A DNA stretch of 38,337 bases from an uncultured Gammaproteobacteria bacterium (GTDB lineage Bacteria; Pseudomonadota; Gammaproteobacteria; Pseudomonadales; Pseudohongiellaceae), in NCBI GenBank assembly GCA_913031035.1, contig CAJWGN010000017.1, positions 1-38,337 of the forward strand, given 5' to 3'. Position 1 is the stretch's first letter. Each line of letters starts with the position of its first letter. Below, in pieces: positions 17,971 through 24,429 of the stretch. A program made the translations under genes and the position numbers. The notes under the pieces are model-generated. The model was not told the origin of the DNA. It made no database searches and saw only the letters and a program-made list of their open reading frames with translations.

Positions 17971-18228
17971 TTAACTAGCTTGATCTGAGGAATTTGAGCC
18001 TTGAGAAGGCGTTGGTGCCTCTTTAATTTTCGCCATCGCCTTTCCAAACAATACTCGCGCAAGGGCAAAAAAGGCAATAATCAGGACCCCTTGGCCAATA
18101 ATAGCGTTAACAACAGAGATTGTTTCCGGTCGCTGGCTAATGAGTACAAGGTTGATTAGTGTCACGAGCCCAATTATTGCGCATGACAGGGCAAGTAATA
18201 GCTGAGTGTAAGCAGTTAGTTTTTTCAT
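17971..18228 (-). CDS. Small two-span membrane protein, 85 aa
   Basis: I do not recognise a family. The start at 18228 (MKKLTAYTQ) is chosen because GGTGG precedes it and the extra upstream 30 residues of the longer frame overlap the preceding acyltransferase gene. Two hydrophobic spans (about res. 8-30 and 42-62) are joined by a short QRPETISV loop, and a hydrophilic tail of about 20 residues rich in Lys, Ser, Gln and Pro follows. It begins 34 bases after the acyltransferase stop on the same strand, so it is probably the last gene of the ATP-grasp/OlsF-like operon. A membrane accessory role is only suggested by position. Confidence 0.6.
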   Translation of the reverse strand: MKKLTAYTQLLLALSCAIIGLVTLINLVLISQRPETISVVNAIIGQGVLIIAFFALARVLFGKAMAKIKEAPTPSQGSNSSDQAS

Positions 18229-18262
18229 TCCACCATTATACGCAATCTGGCGCGCCTGTGAA

Positions 18263-20008
18263 TCAGGCAGAGTCTTGCAATGTGTGAAAAGACATAAAGT
18301 AATCATAGCCCTTGGCACCTAAAAACCGCGTGAGGGTCTTACGACTGGTTTGCCGCGCGTCGACTATAATGAGGCCTTCGAGGGAATCATTGAACCCGGA
18401 ATGAACATTAAAGCAGACCATTTTGCCATTTAATGACAAGTAGTGCCTGAGCAAAACAGGAACAGCTTTGCCAGGATCGCAGCGCCCAATCAGCTTGCCC
18501 AGCATTTTCACATTGGCCAGCTCAGAGAGCATTTCAAGAGTCCAAACTCTGTTACGTACTTCTAATGGCGTAATAGGCTTGACTAAAGAGGCAAAATCTT
18601 TCGCCTGAAAATTCGTTAATAGAGTGTCAGAAATAAGTGAGCGCGCTAAATCACTGTATTCTCGGGAAATGCTAACGGAGCCAAACAGCGTGTGATACTT
18701 GGGGCGCTGAACCAATATGGCACCAATGCCTCGCCATAAAAGATTAAGGGATACCGGTCGGCGCTGATAGTCCGGGTGGATAAACGAACGGCCCATTTCA
18801 ATAGCCGAGCCAAGCTTAGTGATAAAGCTTTCGTCGTACTCATACAACGAGCGGCTGTAAAGTCCCTTTACACCGTGGGCGGCTACTATTTCATCTACCA
18901 GCCCAACGCGATAGGCCCCTGCTATACGACTCTCACCTTTGTCCCAAAGGAAAAGATGCAGGTAGTGAGGGTCAAACTCATCAGAGTCTTTCGACAGACC
19001 GGTGCCTTCTCCCACCGCCCTAAATGAAAATTCCCGCGCTATTGCGATTTGGTCCATCATGTTGCCAAGCTTGTCGTAAGGCGCACAATAAACATCAAAC
19101 TCTTCATGCTCGATAAGCCGGTATTGCTCCAATGAGGCCAAAGTCTCATGCACCGCAATCAAACTATAATCGCTGTCAATGTGATCAATCCCCTGAGGCG
19201 ATGCGGCCTTCATTTTGACTGGCTCCTGAGCCAACGCATCAGTGCTAACCCGTATGTATTCAGTAACGGCTTTCGGGCTTTTCAATAATCGAAGCTCGGT
19301 AGCGGGGATTGGTCGCCCGATCGACAATGGTAATTTGTAATTCTGTTTGTTCGCCAGCTGCCTTGGCAGCAGCATCGTGCGCAGGCGCGGATGTATTCGG
19401 CCCGCTGTGTAAAAATAATTACTGTTTCTGCCCCCAACATATACGGGAACACAGGGGCATTCATGGCGCTTAATTAACTGGCCCACCAAGCGAGACCACG
19501 GCCTGTCTTGAACGCGCCTATGCTTATGCTCATAAGCGGAGACCATCCCAGCCGGAAAAATCAACATGGCACCGTCACTTTTTAAATGCTGATGAACCTG
19601 TTTGATACCGCCCACATTGCCAGACGCGCCCGTGGACGACAGAACATCAACGCCAATGAACATCTCTAACAATTCTGGGATGCGACGTAAAAGCTGATTA
19701 GTGAGAACGCGCAAATCTGGACGGTACTGAGCTATGACTTTAGCTATCGCGACACCTTCCAAGCCCCCCAAGGGGTGATTCGCAACAATAAGAACCGGCC
19801 CAGTTTTGGGGATTTCTAATAATTGTTCCCCATTTTCAATCTGCAGAGTAATCCCAAGCGCGTTCAGCGAATGGTCCAGAAATTCATGGGCAGAGCAATT
19901 GGGTGGACGCTCTTCATAGATATAAGCGAGTCTAGCTAAGCCTAGCGCCTTCTCTAAAACACTGGCTAAAAATCTAGGCTTTATGGGCAGCCAACAAGGA
20001 TTAGTCAT
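18263..20008 (-). CDS. OlsF-like bifunctional acyltransferase
   Basis: 581 aa, two domains. The N-terminal half (res. ~60-260) is a PlsC/LPLAT-type O-acyltransferase with NHPLGGLEG (res. 77-85) and FPAG (res. 151-154); the acidic residue of the motif is Glu where many relatives have Asp. The C-terminal half (res. ~300-560) resembles OlsB-type N-acyltransferases (GNAT/hemolysin family) with AREFSFRAVGEG, SRIAGAYRVG (360-369) and EMGRSFIHPDYQ (404-415). This domain order is that of OlsF of Serratia and Flavobacterium, which makes ornithine lipids from ornithine. The acceptor here could be ornithine, glycine or another amino acid. It overlaps the upstream ATP-grasp gene by eight bases, so the two are translationally coupled. 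Confidence 0.82.
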   Translation of the reverse strand: MTNPCWLPIKPRFLASVLEKALGLARLAYIYEERPPNCSAHEFLDHSLNALGITLQIENGEQLLEIPKTGPVLIVANHPLGGLEGVAIAKVIAQYRPDLRVLTNQLLRRIPELLEMFIGVDVLSSTGASGNVGGIKQVHQHLKSDGAMLIFPAGMVSAYEHKHRRVQDRPWSRLVGQLIKRHECPCVPVYVGGRNSNYFYTAGRIHPRLRTMLLPRQLANKQNYKLPLSIGRPIPATELRLLKSPKAVTEYIRVSTDALAQEPVKMKAASPQGIDHIDSDYSLIAVHETLASLEQYRLIEHEEFDVYCAPYDKLGNMMDQIAIAREFSFRAVGEGTGLSKDSDEFDPHYLHLFLWDKGESRIAGAYRVGLVDEIVAAHGVKGLYSRSLYEYDESFITKLGSAIEMGRSFIHPDYQRRPVSLNLLWRGIGAILVQRPKYHTLFGSVSISREYSDLARSLISDTLLTNFQAKDFASLVKPITPLEVRNRVWTLEMLSELANVKMLGKLIGRCDPGKAVPVLLRHYLSLNGKMVCFNVHSGFNDSLEGLIIVDARQTSRKTLTRFLGAKGYDYFMSFHTLQDSA

Positions 20009-21170
20009 TTTTGGGATATTGTTTTACTAGTTTATTTTCATAGCGCCATGCTTTTAATAGCGCCAGTATTCCGGGTGGCTTATGACCTAGTCGCCGGTTT
20101 TTTTCGCCAAGTGTAAACAGCGTACTGTATTGCTGCAATAGTGTTTTGAGCGCACTGCCTAAACTTGCATCCCTATCCCAGATATTAATCGATTCTGAAC
20201 TAGCCCCATTAATCTCGATAATCTCAAAGTCTGTTCCTGCACTTAGGCTAACGGGATCTTTAAATTTAAGGTCAAGCCGTCCGTAATGAAAACCTGGAAT
20301 ATCAGCGAAAATTCTATCCAAGGACTGTGACAATTTAGTGTTAATTAGCTCTTGCGCGTCGCGAAACACAGCACCGCGACAATGGCTGGCAGAAAACACC
20401 AGTCGATAAGGTTCTCCATCTGCTAAGACACTATCCCAAACCTGTGCATGCCTCTCCTTGTAAAGATGCAGCAACTCGCCGGCTCTAGGATCAGACGCCA
20501 CCAGCTGAGCCAGTGTCTCGCGGCCATTGCCGACGACATAGGGTGTGTACTTTAATGTAAGCGAGGTGACTATGCCGGCTTCTGCGTCTGGGTGTTTGAC
20601 ATAAAAAACACCGGCCTCTGCTTCCCATTGACTGAGCTGCTGGAACTGGACCACACCCAAACAAGGAAACTCACTAATGTAATTCAACACGGCTTTACTG
20701 TCCTCGAGGAGCTTTACCCCAGCTCCTCGACAACCAACATTGGGCTTGCCCACAATTGGAAGCGTAAAACCTTGCTGATCTAAAAGCTGAAGCACCGCTT
20801 TAGTTTGAACAGTTGCATCTTCAGCACTGACCTCATAGAGCATCCAAGGTAGAATCCACTGCCGCGCCGTTTCTCCCGCGACATCAAAAACAGCAGATTT
20901 AGCGACCCCAACCATGCCCGATAACGGGATTGCGGGATTAGCCAGCAATGGCAAACTCAAGCTCCTGTAACGAACAGAAAGAAGAATCCATTGCACTACC
21001 ACAGGAAGATAAACCAGCCAGATAGGCCAGAACTCAAAAAAAGATGTGGACCTCCCACTCAGGTCGAGGGGGGGCATTCCTGGAGGTACGTACGGAGGCG
21101 CGCTTGCTGCCTTTAAAGACAGGGAAGATTCAGCTGGAGTATTACTCAATTGGCTATAGTTCCTACTCAT
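20001..21170 (-). CDS. Membrane-anchored ATP-grasp ligase
   Basis: 389 aa. After a Pro/Ser-rich N-terminal 40 residues comes a hydrophobic span (res. ~46-66, WPIWLVYLPVVVQWILL), then an ATP-grasp domain (res. ~110-340) of the D-Ala-D-Ala ligase/carboxylate-amine ligase style. Supporting residues are K142 in GKPNVGCRGAGV (glycine-rich loop), the acidic D290 in GRLDLKF and the metal pair E309 and N311 in EIIEINGASSE. Such enzymes activate a carboxylate as acyl phosphate and couple it to an amine. Coupling to the OlsF-like acyltransferase by an eight-base overlap suggests a lipid or amino-acid-lipid substrate. The exact substrates are unknown; the annotation stops at the fold and mechanism. Confidence 0.78.
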   Translation of the reverse strand: MSRNYSQLSNTPAESSLSLKAASAPPYVPPGMPPLDLSGRSTSFFEFWPIWLVYLPVVVQWILLSVRYRSLSLPLLANPAIPLSGMVGVAKSAVFDVAGETARQWILPWMLYEVSAEDATVQTKAVLQLLDQQGFTLPIVGKPNVGCRGAGVKLLEDSKAVLNYISEFPCLGVVQFQQLSQWEAEAGVFYVKHPDAEAGIVTSLTLKYTPYVVGNGRETLAQLVASDPRAGELLHLYKERHAQVWDSVLADGEPYRLVFSASHCRGAVFRDAQELINTKLSQSLDRIFADIPGFHYGRLDLKFKDPVSLSAGTDFEIIEINGASSESINIWDRDASLGSALKTLLQQYSTLFTLGEKNRRLGHKPPGILALLKAWRYENKLVKQYPKND

Positions 21171-21369: not shown

Positions 21370-21783
21370 ATGTTTAGTAAATTTATCATCACTGTTTTTG
21401 TCATTGCTGTCGCTGTTATAGTTCTGCGGCAGAGAAGCTCCAATCAGGGTAAGAACAATCAGCGGGCTAAGACTTCCCAGACACCGAAACCAAACGGGGC
21501 TATTTCCAAAGGCCCTGAAAAAGGCCAGTTGTCTAAGGATATGCAGCTCGGAGCCTACCTATTTTTGCTGTTAACCGCCGGCATCGGTGGCGCAATGTAC
21601 TATTTCCAATGGCAAGACGATCACAGCGTCCTCACCATTAACCTATATCGAGATAGTCAGATCGAACCGGTCAGCTACGACGTCTACAAATACCAGCTAC
21701 GTGAAAAATCTTTTATCACTATTGGAGGACTATCCGTTGCCGTTGCGAGCAGTGAAAGAATGGAAATAGTAGGTCTCGAATAG
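21370..21783 (+). CDS. Uncharacterised two-span membrane protein, 137 aa
   Basis: Family not recognised. An N-terminal span (res. 4-19, FIITVFVIAVAVIVL) is followed by a basic, Lys/Gln/Pro-rich hydrophilic linker (res. 20-55), a second span (about 60-78, LGAYLFLLLTAGIGGAMYY) and a 58-residue soluble tail with strand-like segments (SVLTINLYR, VSYDVYKYQL, ITIGGLSVAVASSERMEIVGL). The tail could be a small beta domain in the periplasm or cytoplasm. No good ribosome-binding site precedes the ATG. It is divergent from the ATP-grasp gene, 199 bases away; the shared region probably holds both promoters. Confidence 0.65.
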   Translation: MFSKFIITVFVIAVAVIVLRQRSSNQGKNNQRAKTSQTPKPNGAISKGPEKGQLSKDMQLGAYLFLLLTAGIGGAMYYFQWQDDHSVLTINLYRDSQIEPVSYDVYKYQLREKSFITIGGLSVAVASSERMEIVGLE

Positions 21784-22467: not shown

Positions 22468-23028
22468 TTAATCTATTTCTATTTCTATGTCGGTAAGCTC
22501 AACTATGTCAAAACGGCGGCCAAGAGCGCTAATATCATCAGTGCTGATATCACCCACTATATTCACTAAAACAATCTCTCTAGGCTCAGCCACCATTATC
22601 GCGACTCCGTGAATCCGCTCAGCGTTTTCCGAAAGTCGGAAGTAAATATCAACGTGGCTGTCATCTTCACGCACTCGAACCACACGCTCCCAGCCTTTCG
22701 CATCCAACTCCTTTGCTGTCTGATTCATTGATGCAGATATTTCATCTATATTAATCGCATCACTTTCGAAAACATTGACCGTAACCCGCAGCAATTTGGA
22801 AATGAACTCTGCTGCCTGCTCATCCTCAGTCCGTATTAAATTTGTCATCATATTCAACAACGGCGCTTTAAGGCTCACTTCAACCTTAGGCTCAACGTTT
22901 GCTATGGACGTCAGCGTGGAGAAATCTACGAATCCGGGGTGGTTGTCAACAGACCTATCTGCCGCAACTGCGAAGGGAGCAAAAGCGCAGATGATTAATG
23001 GCACTAGTACTCTTTTAATAATTTTCAT
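22468..23028 (-). CDS. DUF4252 exported protein of a sigma/anti-sigma locus
   Basis: 186 aa. The start at 23028 is chosen because GAGGT lies seven bases upstream; a longer frame to 23121 would overlap the anti-sigma gene. A signal peptide is seen (KRVLVPLIICAFAPFAVAA, cut likely after AVAA). The mature part has the DUF4252 layout: FVDFSTLT at the start, a middle helix segment with LLRVTVNVFESD, then GWERVVRVREDDSHVDIYFR and the closing REIVLVNIVGDIS. The protein ends in an acidic DIEIEID tail. Function of the family is unknown; members are usually encoded with an ECF sigma factor and anti-sigma factor, as here, and may be envelope-stress outputs or sensors. Confidence 0.85.
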   Translation of the reverse strand: MKIIKRVLVPLIICAFAPFAVAADRSVDNHPGFVDFSTLTSIANVEPKVEVSLKAPLLNMMTNLIRTEDEQAAEFISKLLRVTVNVFESDAINIDEISASMNQTAKELDAKGWERVVRVREDDSHVDIYFRLSENAERIHGVAIMVAEPREIVLVNIVGDISTDDISALGRRFDIVELTDIEIEID

Positions 23029-23053
23029 ATTGATACCTCGTTTTCTGGCGGAA

Positions 23054-23097
23054 CCGATTAAATCGGCAAAATAATTTAAATCCGATCTAAATCGGAT
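23054..23097 (-). terminator. Twin hairpins between anti-sigma and DUF4252 genes
   Basis: Two related palindromes stand 14 bases apart: ATCCGAT-CTAA-ATCGGAT (23080-23097, perfect 7-base stem) and CCGAT-TAA-ATCGG (23054-23066). On the transcribed minus strand the first is followed by an A/T-rich stretch ending TTATTTT, as in a leaky intrinsic terminator. Its stem overlaps the anti-sigma stop codon. It could reduce DUF4252 expression relative to sigma/anti-sigma, or the pair may be operator sites. Confidence 0.4.
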
Positions 23098-23743
23098 CGT
23101 TTCGCAATACCCGACTCCCAATACGTCGGTTTAAGCGCGGGCGATCAAACGATGCATTAAGTGATTCTTGCAAAGGTGTAACCACAAAGCGCTCACCAAT
23201 CATGACCTCAGTGCGCTTGCTGACGTCATTTAAATACTCAATTGCTAAATTCAGATCCAGTAAAGCTTTTTGGATTTCCTCTGAACTGTAACTATCGGCA
23301 GTCGTATTCGCGGCTTGCTGACTCGGTAATGCAACATCGGTCTCCAGCAGTTGACCACTCATTGACATCACTACTACGGCGAATGCCAAAGCAGGAACCG
23401 CGAATCGCAGTGATAATGGCATAGCTGACAACCAATCATTAACTGGCTGCCAAAAACTCCCCGGCGACCGCATGGGTAAAGGTTCTGGTTGGCGCTCATG
23501 CTGCGAAATTCTATGGGCCGGCTCTAATGCCAGGTCACTGCAATCCATCATTGGTAGATCCATCACCGCATCGTGCAAATTACGAGCAAAATGCAGTTCC
23601 TTGGCACAAGCTGCGCAGGAATGAACATGCCCCATGAACACCTCTAACTGGGCAACCACAAGCTCTCCGTCGAGAAAGCTATCGATCTGCAGTTGAACGA
23701 AATAACATTGGGAATCAGGAGATGTCTGCATAATTTTGCTCAA
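23087..23743 (-). CDS. Zinc-finger anti-sigma factor, membrane-bound
   Basis: 218 aa single-pass protein that should hold the ECF sigma factor encoded just upstream. The N-terminal ZAS zinc motif H39-x3-C43-x2-C46 (HVHSCAACAKEL) is visible inside a helical sigma-binding domain. A hydrophobic span follows at about res. 110-130 (LRFAVPALAFAVVVMSMSG), and the rest is periplasmic, with EEIQKALLDLNLAIEYLNDV, which resembles a helical sensor stalk. Its ATG overlaps the sigma stop (ATGA), so synthesis is coupled. The signal it senses is unknown. Confidence 0.88.
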   Translation of the reverse strand: MSKIMQTSPDSQCYFVQLQIDSFLDGELVVAQLEVFMGHVHSCAACAKELHFARNLHDAVMDLPMMDCSDLALEPAHRISQHERQPEPLPMRSPGSFWQPVNDWLSAMPLSLRFAVPALAFAVVVMSMSGQLLETDVALPSQQAANTTADSYSSEEIQKALLDLNLAIEYLNDVSKRTEVMIGERFVVTPLQESLNASFDRPRLNRRIGSRVLRNDPI

Positions 23744-24297
23744 TTGGCTGTTCCATGAACGTAACCGGACTCTGCTGTCCCGGGCACTGAACTATTAAAT
23801 AAATCTCTTAAAGCCGTATCTTCTCTCAGTTTTCGTCTGGCGCGATGCAAATAAACCTTCACCTGACTTTCGCTGATATCCAAACTCTCTCGAATATCCA
23901 TATAGCTAGCCCCTTGTATGTCGCGCATGATGACGATGCTTTTAAACGGATCTTCCAAAGCGTGTATAGCCTTCATTATTTGAACTCTGCAAACTTCTTG
24001 ATCAAGTTCAGCCCCCTCTACACTTTCCGATGCCTGTTGCTCAACTTCGGCATAGCTGTCCACCCCATCATCGCGAGGCTTTTGACGCCTGACGTGGTCA
24101 ATGACTGCATTATGAGCGACTCGCATAAGCCAGCCCCCGACTTTCAAGTGATCGATCTTCTGCCAGTTTTGCCAGAGCTTGACAAAAACCTCTTGAGTCA
24201 CATCCTCCGCATCGGCTTTAACGCGCAGGCTGTAGTAGGCAAAAGAGAAAACCCTTTGCCTGTGCTGATTCATGACTTGTTGGTATTGCGTTAACAT
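23740..24297 (-). CDS. ECF-family RNA polymerase sigma factor
   Basis: 185 aa if started at ATG 24297 (MLTQYQQVMNQ); a frame from 24360 is longer but runs through a C8 tract and has no family resemblance there. Region 2 is visible as FAYYSLRVKADAEDVTQEVFVKLWQNW followed by GGWLMRVAHNAVIDHVRR, and region 4 as EDPFKSIVIMRDIQGASYMDIRESL with the helix-turn-helix SESQVKVYLHRARRKLRE. It is co-expressed with the anti-sigma factor through a four-base overlap. A plausible ECF-type promoter stands directly upstream, which suggests autoregulation. If that promoter is real, the functional start might be M9 (24273). Confidence 0.9.
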   Translation of the reverse strand: MLTQYQQVMNQHRQRVFSFAYYSLRVKADAEDVTQEVFVKLWQNWQKIDHLKVGGWLMRVAHNAVIDHVRRQKPRDDGVDSYAEVEQQASESVEGAELDQEVCRVQIMKAIHALEDPFKSIVIMRDIQGASYMDIRESLDISESQVKVYLHRARRKLREDTALRDLFNSSVPGTAESGYVHGTAN

Positions 24298-24304
24298 TGT
24301 ATAT

Positions 24305-24332
24305 AAAGACGGGGGGGGTGAAAGAAAGTTAC
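24305..24332 (-). promoter_or_regulatory. Candidate ECF autoregulatory promoter with C8 spacer
   Basis: On the minus strand GTAACTT (24332-24326), 15 spacer bases and GTCTTT (24310-24305) resemble the RpoE-type GGAACTT-N15/16-GTC pattern. Eight of the fifteen spacer bases are one C tract (24311-24318). Transcription would start about 1-3 bases before ATG 24297, hence leaderless or starting at the next Met. Confidence 0.35.
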
Positions 24333-24429
24333 AGAACACTTCGATTTTTTCGAAAAACAATCAAACTGAAAAATCAAACTGGAAAAAACGTTACTTTATC
24401 TCATTAGGTGAGGTGTGTTTTAGTCATTT

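Follow-up and report, generated by a model that had tools for sequence, protein, structure and literature searches.

In a 38,337-nucleotide contig of an uncultured gammaproteobacterium of the family Pseudohongiellaceae (GenBank assembly GCA_913031035.1, contig CAJWGN010000017.1; in the following, the window), we analyzed an adjacent gene pair encoding an ATP-grasp ligase and an OlsF-like acyltransferase. The recurrence of this pairing across genomes suggests a so far unrecognized step that modifies ornithine lipids, which are phosphorus-free membrane lipids. The ligase is very probably linked in function to aminolipid synthesis, because it pairs with OlsF, is found with OlsB at loci where OlsB takes the place of OlsF, occurs fused to a VTT domain, has amino-acid ligases as its kin and retains invariant catalytic residues. 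More specifically, gene content and sequence comparison point to a putative aminolipid synthesis-and-tailoring unit, in which the ligase would activate the lipid carboxylate and join an amine or amino acid to it, a reading in which our confidence is about evenly balanced. The window is a single contig of a 3.96 Mb draft genome that is 92% complete. The features at the locus are:

20001–21170, minus strand: ATP-grasp ligase of an uncharacterized family, 389 residues, with a hydrophobic helix at residues 50–68, a KPxxGxxGxGV loop at 142–152 and the residue pairs R298/D300 and E319/N321.
18263–20008, minus strand: OlsF-like two-domain acyltransferase, 581 residues, combining a PF19576 O-acyltransferase with a PF13444 OlsB/GNAT-type N-acyltransferase.
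20001–20008, minus strand: eight-base overlap ATGACTAA, with the olsF start within the ATP-grasp stop.
18235–18262, minus strand: sigma-70-like promoter TTCACA-16-TATAAT, matching the consensus at 11 of 12 positions and preceding the small membrane gene.
17971–18228, minus strand: small two-span membrane protein, 85 residues, starting with the ATG at 18228.

Within the host family, an ATP-grasp match was present in 69 of 137 genomes, degraded copies included, with a single genus contributing 63 of them. In 66 of these 69 genomes, the contig with the ligase also holds an OlsF-like gene no more than 5 kb away, the spacing being identical in 52 cases. Two genomes for which no OlsF neighbor was counted are explained by contig ends, one falling inside OlsF (G124; L023), the other leaving a truncated ligase at the edge (G016). 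The underlying family list of OlsF genes comprised 79 genomes, from which single-domain and short-fragment matches were excluded, whereas the partial genes of G007, G070, G089 and G124 were included and the pieces of G116 merged. At the nucleotide level, 37 loci of the window's genus were compared, close relatives of which at least four represent the same contig fetched twice; the overlap is precisely eight bases in 33 of them. The open reading frames thereby bear out the initial sequence-only reading, which had described an ATP-grasp gene overlapping an OlsF-like PlsC + GNAT gene by eight bases. The overlap suggests translational coupling of the two genes, and a chance adjacency is untenable given the family linkage and the conserved overlap.

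Outside the family, we sampled 369 genomes of the class and 397 of the phylum, where an OlsF-like gene lay within 5 kb in 12 of the 22 genomes with a ligase match above 100 bits, the window's own genome not being among the 22. Only these matches were counted, and the weaker ones of about 18–29 bits look like other ATP-grasp enzymes. Thirty loci outside the host family, being those fetched (5.5–17 kb each) and no random sample, contained OlsF in 13 cases, a separate OlsB in three and neither in 14. The co-occurrence that the sequence-only reading had anticipated thus stood for the larger part, the ligase being tied mostly to OlsF or else to OlsB, accompanied by OlsA in two of three cases, and failed for the 14 outside loci with neither gene.

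The OlsB loci are informative in their gene order. Loci L093 and L094 are arranged as DinB-like, NRDE, ATP-grasp, OlsB, OlsA and YHS, with scores of 178–179 bits to OlsB models and 160–172 bits to OlsA models, both below the NCBIfam equivalog cut-offs. At the Variovorax locus L115, OlsB (175 bits) directly follows the ATP-grasp gene and is itself followed by a major-facilitator transporter, which we read as LplT-like. Taken with the OlsF loci, these arrangements tie one ligase to two acyltransferase arrangements for the same lipid steps. Furthermore, all three tested genomes that possess the ligase and lack OlsF (G763, G874, G777) encode an OlsB homologue elsewhere, scoring 261–284 bits and thus below the cut-off of 350, as compared with none of 14 controls. 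At L115 as well as on the Komagataeibacter plasmid L116, a methylase-like gene and a gene for a protein of about 300 residues precede the ligase, and the two proteins of about 300 residues may be related to each other. Among 28 plasmid records carrying the ligase, seven were typed as conjugative.

In several lineages the ligase belongs to a wider cassette, in Vibrio sp. THAF191d (L112) with the order VTT, ATP-grasp, DinB-like, NRDE/TANGO2, YHS, DoxX-like and OlsF, subsets of which, sometimes in altered order, were found at L092, L098–L102, L105, L110, L111 and L146–L148. The names derive from Pfam and NCBIfam (VTT, PF09335; TANGO2, PF05742; YHS, PF04945 and NF041384), the DinB match (PF05163) being below the cut-off and the DoxX-like label reflecting the PF13564 match of one member, likewise below the cut-off. 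At L044, L108, L109 and L114, a VTT (DedA) domain precedes the ligase within one fusion protein. In the family f215, where 14 of 34 genomes carry the ligase, VTT adjoins it in 11 of 17 loci within 1.5-kb flanks, and one member shares 63% identity with a Komagataeibacter protein. Searching the 38-kb window and the related loci L035–L042 by tblastn at E 1e-4 revealed no VTT, DinB-like, NRDE, YHS or DoxX-like gene in these loci. If a cassette locus is defined by the ligase together with one or more further genes of the cassette, the window counts as one by virtue of OlsF adjoining the ligase. Regarding the NRDE/TANGO2 component, human TANGO2 is described as resembling a cysteine Ntn-hydrolase, with bile-salt hydrolase serving as one point of comparison (PMC13044924; here and below, statements on published work refer to passages of the cited articles), a Shewanella member of the family as heme-trafficking (PMC10470608), and the latter role is disputed for the family (PMC12782551).

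An experimentally studied relative of the window's acyltransferase is found in Vibrio cholerae. VCA0646, a 581-residue OlsF homologue and the last gene of the putative operon VCA0649–VCA0646, makes ornithine lipid when expressed alone in Escherichia coli and also in its own host at low salinity (PMC12186959), and VC0489 makes ornithine lipid in E. coli as well (PMC12186959). A 27-base stretch of the published VCA0646 primer matched without mismatch in one of 148 genomes of the genus (G910), at a locus (L150) ordered VTT, ATP-grasp, DinB-like, NRDE, YHS and OlsF. Compared to the window, the ATP-grasp protein of this locus is 45% identical and the OlsF protein, encoded by the copy with the primer site, 43.6% identical over 574 residues. 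A table in PMC7600106 lists VCA0650-1 as a 'D-alanine-D-alanine ligase' and a hypothetical protein; together with the L150 gene order, this entry suggests that VCA0650 encodes the ATP-grasp protein and VCA0651 the VTT protein. The VCA0646 cluster hence combines the same ATP-grasp family and the same OlsF type as the window in one cluster, with VCA0646 being a proven ornithine-lipid synthase, but differs in its additional VTT, DinB-like, NRDE and YHS genes and in the three genes that part the ligase from OlsF. The earlier statement that no characterized system has this gene pair therefore needs correction, as the VCA0646 cluster holds the ATP-grasp gene too, though the ligase is uncharacterized there.

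The same Vibrio genes have been approached from another side. The genes vca0646-0649 are activated by HapR and were called unknown in function; overexpression of vca0646 and vca0647 raises cell death in a hapR mutant, and deletion of all four genes leaves the pattern unchanged (PMC11573629). In an iurV mutant, VCA0650-1, VCA0648-9 and VCA0646-7 are reduced along with msrB, copG, a copper ATPase and an extracytoplasmic function (ECF) sigma factor (PMC7600106). The passages of PMC12186959 and PMC11573629 do not name the ATP-grasp and VTT genes just upstream, and a term search of the main text of PMC12186959 returned neither 'cell death' nor HapR nor VCA0650. The ligase locus joins the cell-death account of vca0646-0649 (PMC11573629) with the ornithine-lipid-synthase account of VCA0646 (PMC12186959). 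In a genus grouped with Vibrio, five loci (L141–L145) contain stand-alone OlsF-like genes, 52–54% identical to the cassette copy of L101 and flanked neither by the ligase nor by any further cassette gene, which are perhaps of the VC0489 type.

We characterized the ligase by profile searches and structure prediction. As a single sequence, the window protein matched no Pfam family at E 0.1 and the NCBIfam model rimK_fam only at E 0.019, and the single-sequence search against PDB sequences yielded nothing useful, so that only profiles succeeded. A profile of 37 members spanning alpha-, beta- and gammaproteobacteria matched the cyanophycin synthetase CphA2 (8fxh, E 6.3e-12; 7ta5, 6.5e-11), cyanophycin synthetase 1 (1.2e-8), Ddl (2.2e-5) and GshF (5.5e-5). 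At E 0.1, PF08443 matched 18 of the 37 members and PF07478 ten of them (best 8.3e-5), the window protein matching neither. The AlphaFold model, calculated from 31 sequences and superseding an earlier, shallow one with a predicted local distance difference test value (pLDDT) of 73.0, reached a mean pLDDT of 90.9 and a predicted template modeling score (pTM) of 0.87, and its top Foldseek matches were cyanophycin synthetases (2.7e-10), GshF (7.8e-10) and Ddl (1.1e-8). As family profile and predicted structure agree, the window protein is assigned an ATP-grasp fold, an identification resting on profile and model and not on the single sequence. The structure prediction that had been suggested for locating the acceptor pocket accordingly delivered the fold with confidence but not the acceptor, the TM-score (query-normalized) being 0.46 at best.

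Across all 37 members, 23 alignment columns were invariant, including K142, P143, G146, G149, E185, R298, D300, E319, N321 and E326, which we take to be those that bind nucleotide and magnesium in ATP-grasp enzymes, consistent with the CphA2 alignment. Fold and catalytic residues are thus common to the ligase, the ATP-grasp domain of CphA1/CphA2, GshF and Ddl. Compared to the cyanophycin synthetases, however, the ligase is much shorter, carries a hydrophobic amino-terminal helix, is only 16–18% identical and resides in a lipid-synthesis gene context. This helix spans residues 50–68 in the model, and the hydropathy averaged over 19 residues starting at position 48 is 1.77, which makes the proposed membrane anchoring plausible; as the corresponding stretch of the relative L101 reaches only 1.25, the helix may lie on the membrane surface instead of spanning it. 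Some relatives are publicly labeled 'D-alanine--D-alanine ligase', an identity that we rejected for the window protein, as it has no PF07478 match and no more than 55 columns could be aligned when the family was compared with five Ddl sequences by hhalign. The window genome as a whole has no strong D-Ala-D-Ala ligase, its best PF07478 match being 26.7 bits where seven of seven other genomes exceed 139 bits, probably due to draft incompleteness.

The role of the ligase relative to OlsF can be approached from genomes that have lost it. In six genomes of the window's genus (L127–L132) the ATP-grasp gene is present only in pieces, L127 keeping most of it in broken-up form, and in four others (L133–L136) no ATP-grasp gene was found, the loss being less sure for L133, which starts at a contig edge. 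Two further genomes, G116 with both genes split and G070 at a contig edge, were excluded from this set. OlsF is full length in all ten, 65–72% identical to that of the window. As the genomes are drafts, an individual broken copy may reflect an assembly error, although related genomes agree with one another, which in general speaks against such an explanation. On a 51-row OlsF tree, presence and absence of the ligase require four changes, likewise when only well-supported branches are considered. The ratio of non-synonymous to synonymous substitution rates (dN/dS) of OlsF was 0.05–0.14 in seven of seven pairs in which neither genome has an intact ligase; among the four pairs that retain the ligase, values of 0.085 and 0.196 were obtained for two, the other two being saturated. 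That OlsF is retained under purifying selection without the ligase is easier to reconcile with tailoring of the finished lipid than with a supply of the head group, and on these sequence comparisons the ligase seems to be a tailoring enzyme that can be dispensed with.

The OlsF-like protein carries both domains in one chain (PF19576, 63.8 bits with a cut-off of 27; PF13444, 73.9 bits with a cut-off of 22.4). The NCBIfam OlsF model NF052615 matched residues 17–563 at E 4e-112. The protein thereby resembles OlsF of the Serratia proteamaculans type in having the two acyltransferase domains in the same order and in a near full-length model match, but its 375.6 bits remain below the cut-off of 620. 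Judged by these matches, we filed it as OlsF-like and not as an OlsF equivalog, so that its substrate is not to be assumed.

The small membrane gene downstream was considered as a possible further member of the unit. Its two strong hydrophobic stretches (hydropathy peaks of 2.63 and 2.27) support the predicted two-span topology, whereas its membership is not upheld. The likely start codon at 18228 lies 34 bases past the olsF stop, a promoter-like site of its own is found at 18262–18235, and the gene stays beside OlsF in ten of ten loci without an intact ligase (L127–L136); it is thus probably not part of the ligase-OlsF unit. The promoter call is a consensus match only, in a region holding five sites versus 4.7 expected, with this single one matching at 11 of 12 positions. 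On the other side of the pair, divergent from the ATP-grasp gene, a gene for a 137-residue protein (21370–21783, plus strand) with no database match above the cut-off is also present in L035–L042 and in nine of the ten loci where the ligase gene is broken or absent. Three genes in a row on the minus strand lie upstream of the pair, coding for an ECF sigma factor (23740–24360), a putative anti-sigma factor whose zf-HC2 match is below threshold (23087–23743) and a DUF4252 protein (22468–23121), and an ECF-like gene directly upstream of the ATP-grasp gene also occurs at L110 and L111.

For the tailoring reading, which takes up the lipid extension proposed in the sequence-only reading and ranks highest among the explanations weighed here, the following sequence of reactions can be proposed. 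The OlsF-like protein would use a 3-hydroxyacyl group to N-acylate ornithine or a comparable amino acid, and would then O-acylate the product, as shown for VCA0646. The membrane-associated ligase would subsequently phosphorylate the free alpha-carboxylate of the aminolipid, and an amine (taurine, an amino acid or another small amine of this kind) would attack to give a head-group-extended, dipeptide-like lipid. Cyanophycin synthetase extends its chain in such a way, via an activated carboxylate. In other lineages, the VTT/DedA, NRDE/TANGO2, DinB-like, YHS and DoxX-like proteins may move, trim or otherwise handle the product; in the window's genus, the ligase-OlsF core stands alone at the locus.

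Several observations weigh against this reading. G074 is on present data a true exception to the linkage, with the small membrane gene directly after the ligase and OlsF on another contig. At E 1e-40 and counting single-domain matches, the OlsF profile hits far more genomes than the ligase does, 55 of 369 in the class and 115 of 397 in the phylum, and the 14 outside loci with neither OlsF nor OlsB/OlsA include Salinivibrio, Paracoccus, Azospirillum and Komagataeibacter. The fold does not reveal the acceptor. Moreover, the native V. cholerae host shows plain ornithine lipid on thin-layer chromatography, plus unexplained radioactivity at the origin (PMC12186959), and the liquid chromatography–mass spectrometry account in the same article concerns E. 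coli extracts.

Among the other explanations, a non-lipid target of the ligase (a protein, a peptide or a small molecule of the stress response), with OlsF or OlsB merely co-regulated in a membrane-stress cassette, is conceivable but rather unlikely. It would account for the loci L043, L044, L095, L096, L103, L104 and L117, where DinB-like, NRDE, YHS, VTT and DoxX-like genes accompany the ligase without OlsF or OlsB, and for the joint decrease of the VCA0646-0651 genes with msrB, copG, the copper ATPase and the ECF factor in the iurV mutant (PMC7600106). It does not readily explain why the ligase pairs with OlsF and, separately, with OlsB, nor the VTT fusion, nor the OlsB retained in three of three genomes without OlsF, though OlsB may be common in such lineages. 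We consider it distinctly improbable that the ligase makes the head group first, from two small molecules, for N-acylation by the OlsB-type domain. Some ATP-grasp relatives do make free dipeptides, and the ligase gene leads and overlaps olsF; yet OlsF persists under purifying selection in the ten genomes without an intact ligase, which weakens the ATP-grasp protein as an obligate head-group supplier, and VCA0646 alone gives plain ornithine lipid in E. coli (PMC12186959). On both counts, the supply of an unusual head group, which the sequence-only reading had offered as an alternative, has become less likely.

Two further scenarios have very little to recommend them. The ligase might itself form a fatty-acyl amide via an acyl phosphate, comparable to acyl-histidines, and an aminolipid review does mention acyl-phosphate donors, citing an ATP-grasp review there (PMC11631085); however, the acyltransferase-linked loci already hold an OlsB-type N-acyltransferase, either alone or as the carboxy-terminal half of OlsF. 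Equally far-fetched is an inactive relic beside a unit that makes plain ornithine lipid only: the repeated loss of the ligase in the window's genus would agree with decay, but its catalytic residues are invariant in all 37 proteobacterial members and the eight-base overlap is kept in 33 of 37 loci.

Lipids of the type expected if the ligase extends the lipid head group are known. Ornithine lipids are estimated to be made by about half of sequenced bacterial species (PMC12493201). Cerilipin, the ornithine-taurine lipid of Gluconobacter cerinus, is cited in PMC12493201, PMC4484230, PMC6669457 and PMC4929514, and with the Gly-Ser dipeptide lipids (flavolipins) it exemplifies this product type. 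The cited passage of PMC12493201 refers to 'taurine transfer' with references including Tahara 1976 and names no enzyme, and the route to the Gly-Ser lipids is called unknown in PMC10191378. Cerilipin and the Gly-Ser lipids are thus known as chemistry. In the open-licence literature we found no paper that assigns a function in lipid metabolism to this ligase. A bolder proposal, which we regard as unlikely in its full form, is that the ligase family is the missing enzyme of the cerilipin reaction, joining taurine or another amine to the ornithine-lipid carboxylate, with VTT/DedA moving the product across the membrane and NRDE/TANGO2 removing the residue. The 'cell death' genes vca0646-0649, which are under quorum control, would in that case belong to a pathway of reversible lipid remodeling. 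More generally, lipids with a second residue have been reported since 1976, and the papers found name, in the passages concerned, no enzyme that adds it. Being conserved, intact in its catalytic residues and associated with either type of ornithine-lipid synthase, the ligase is a specific candidate for adding this second residue.

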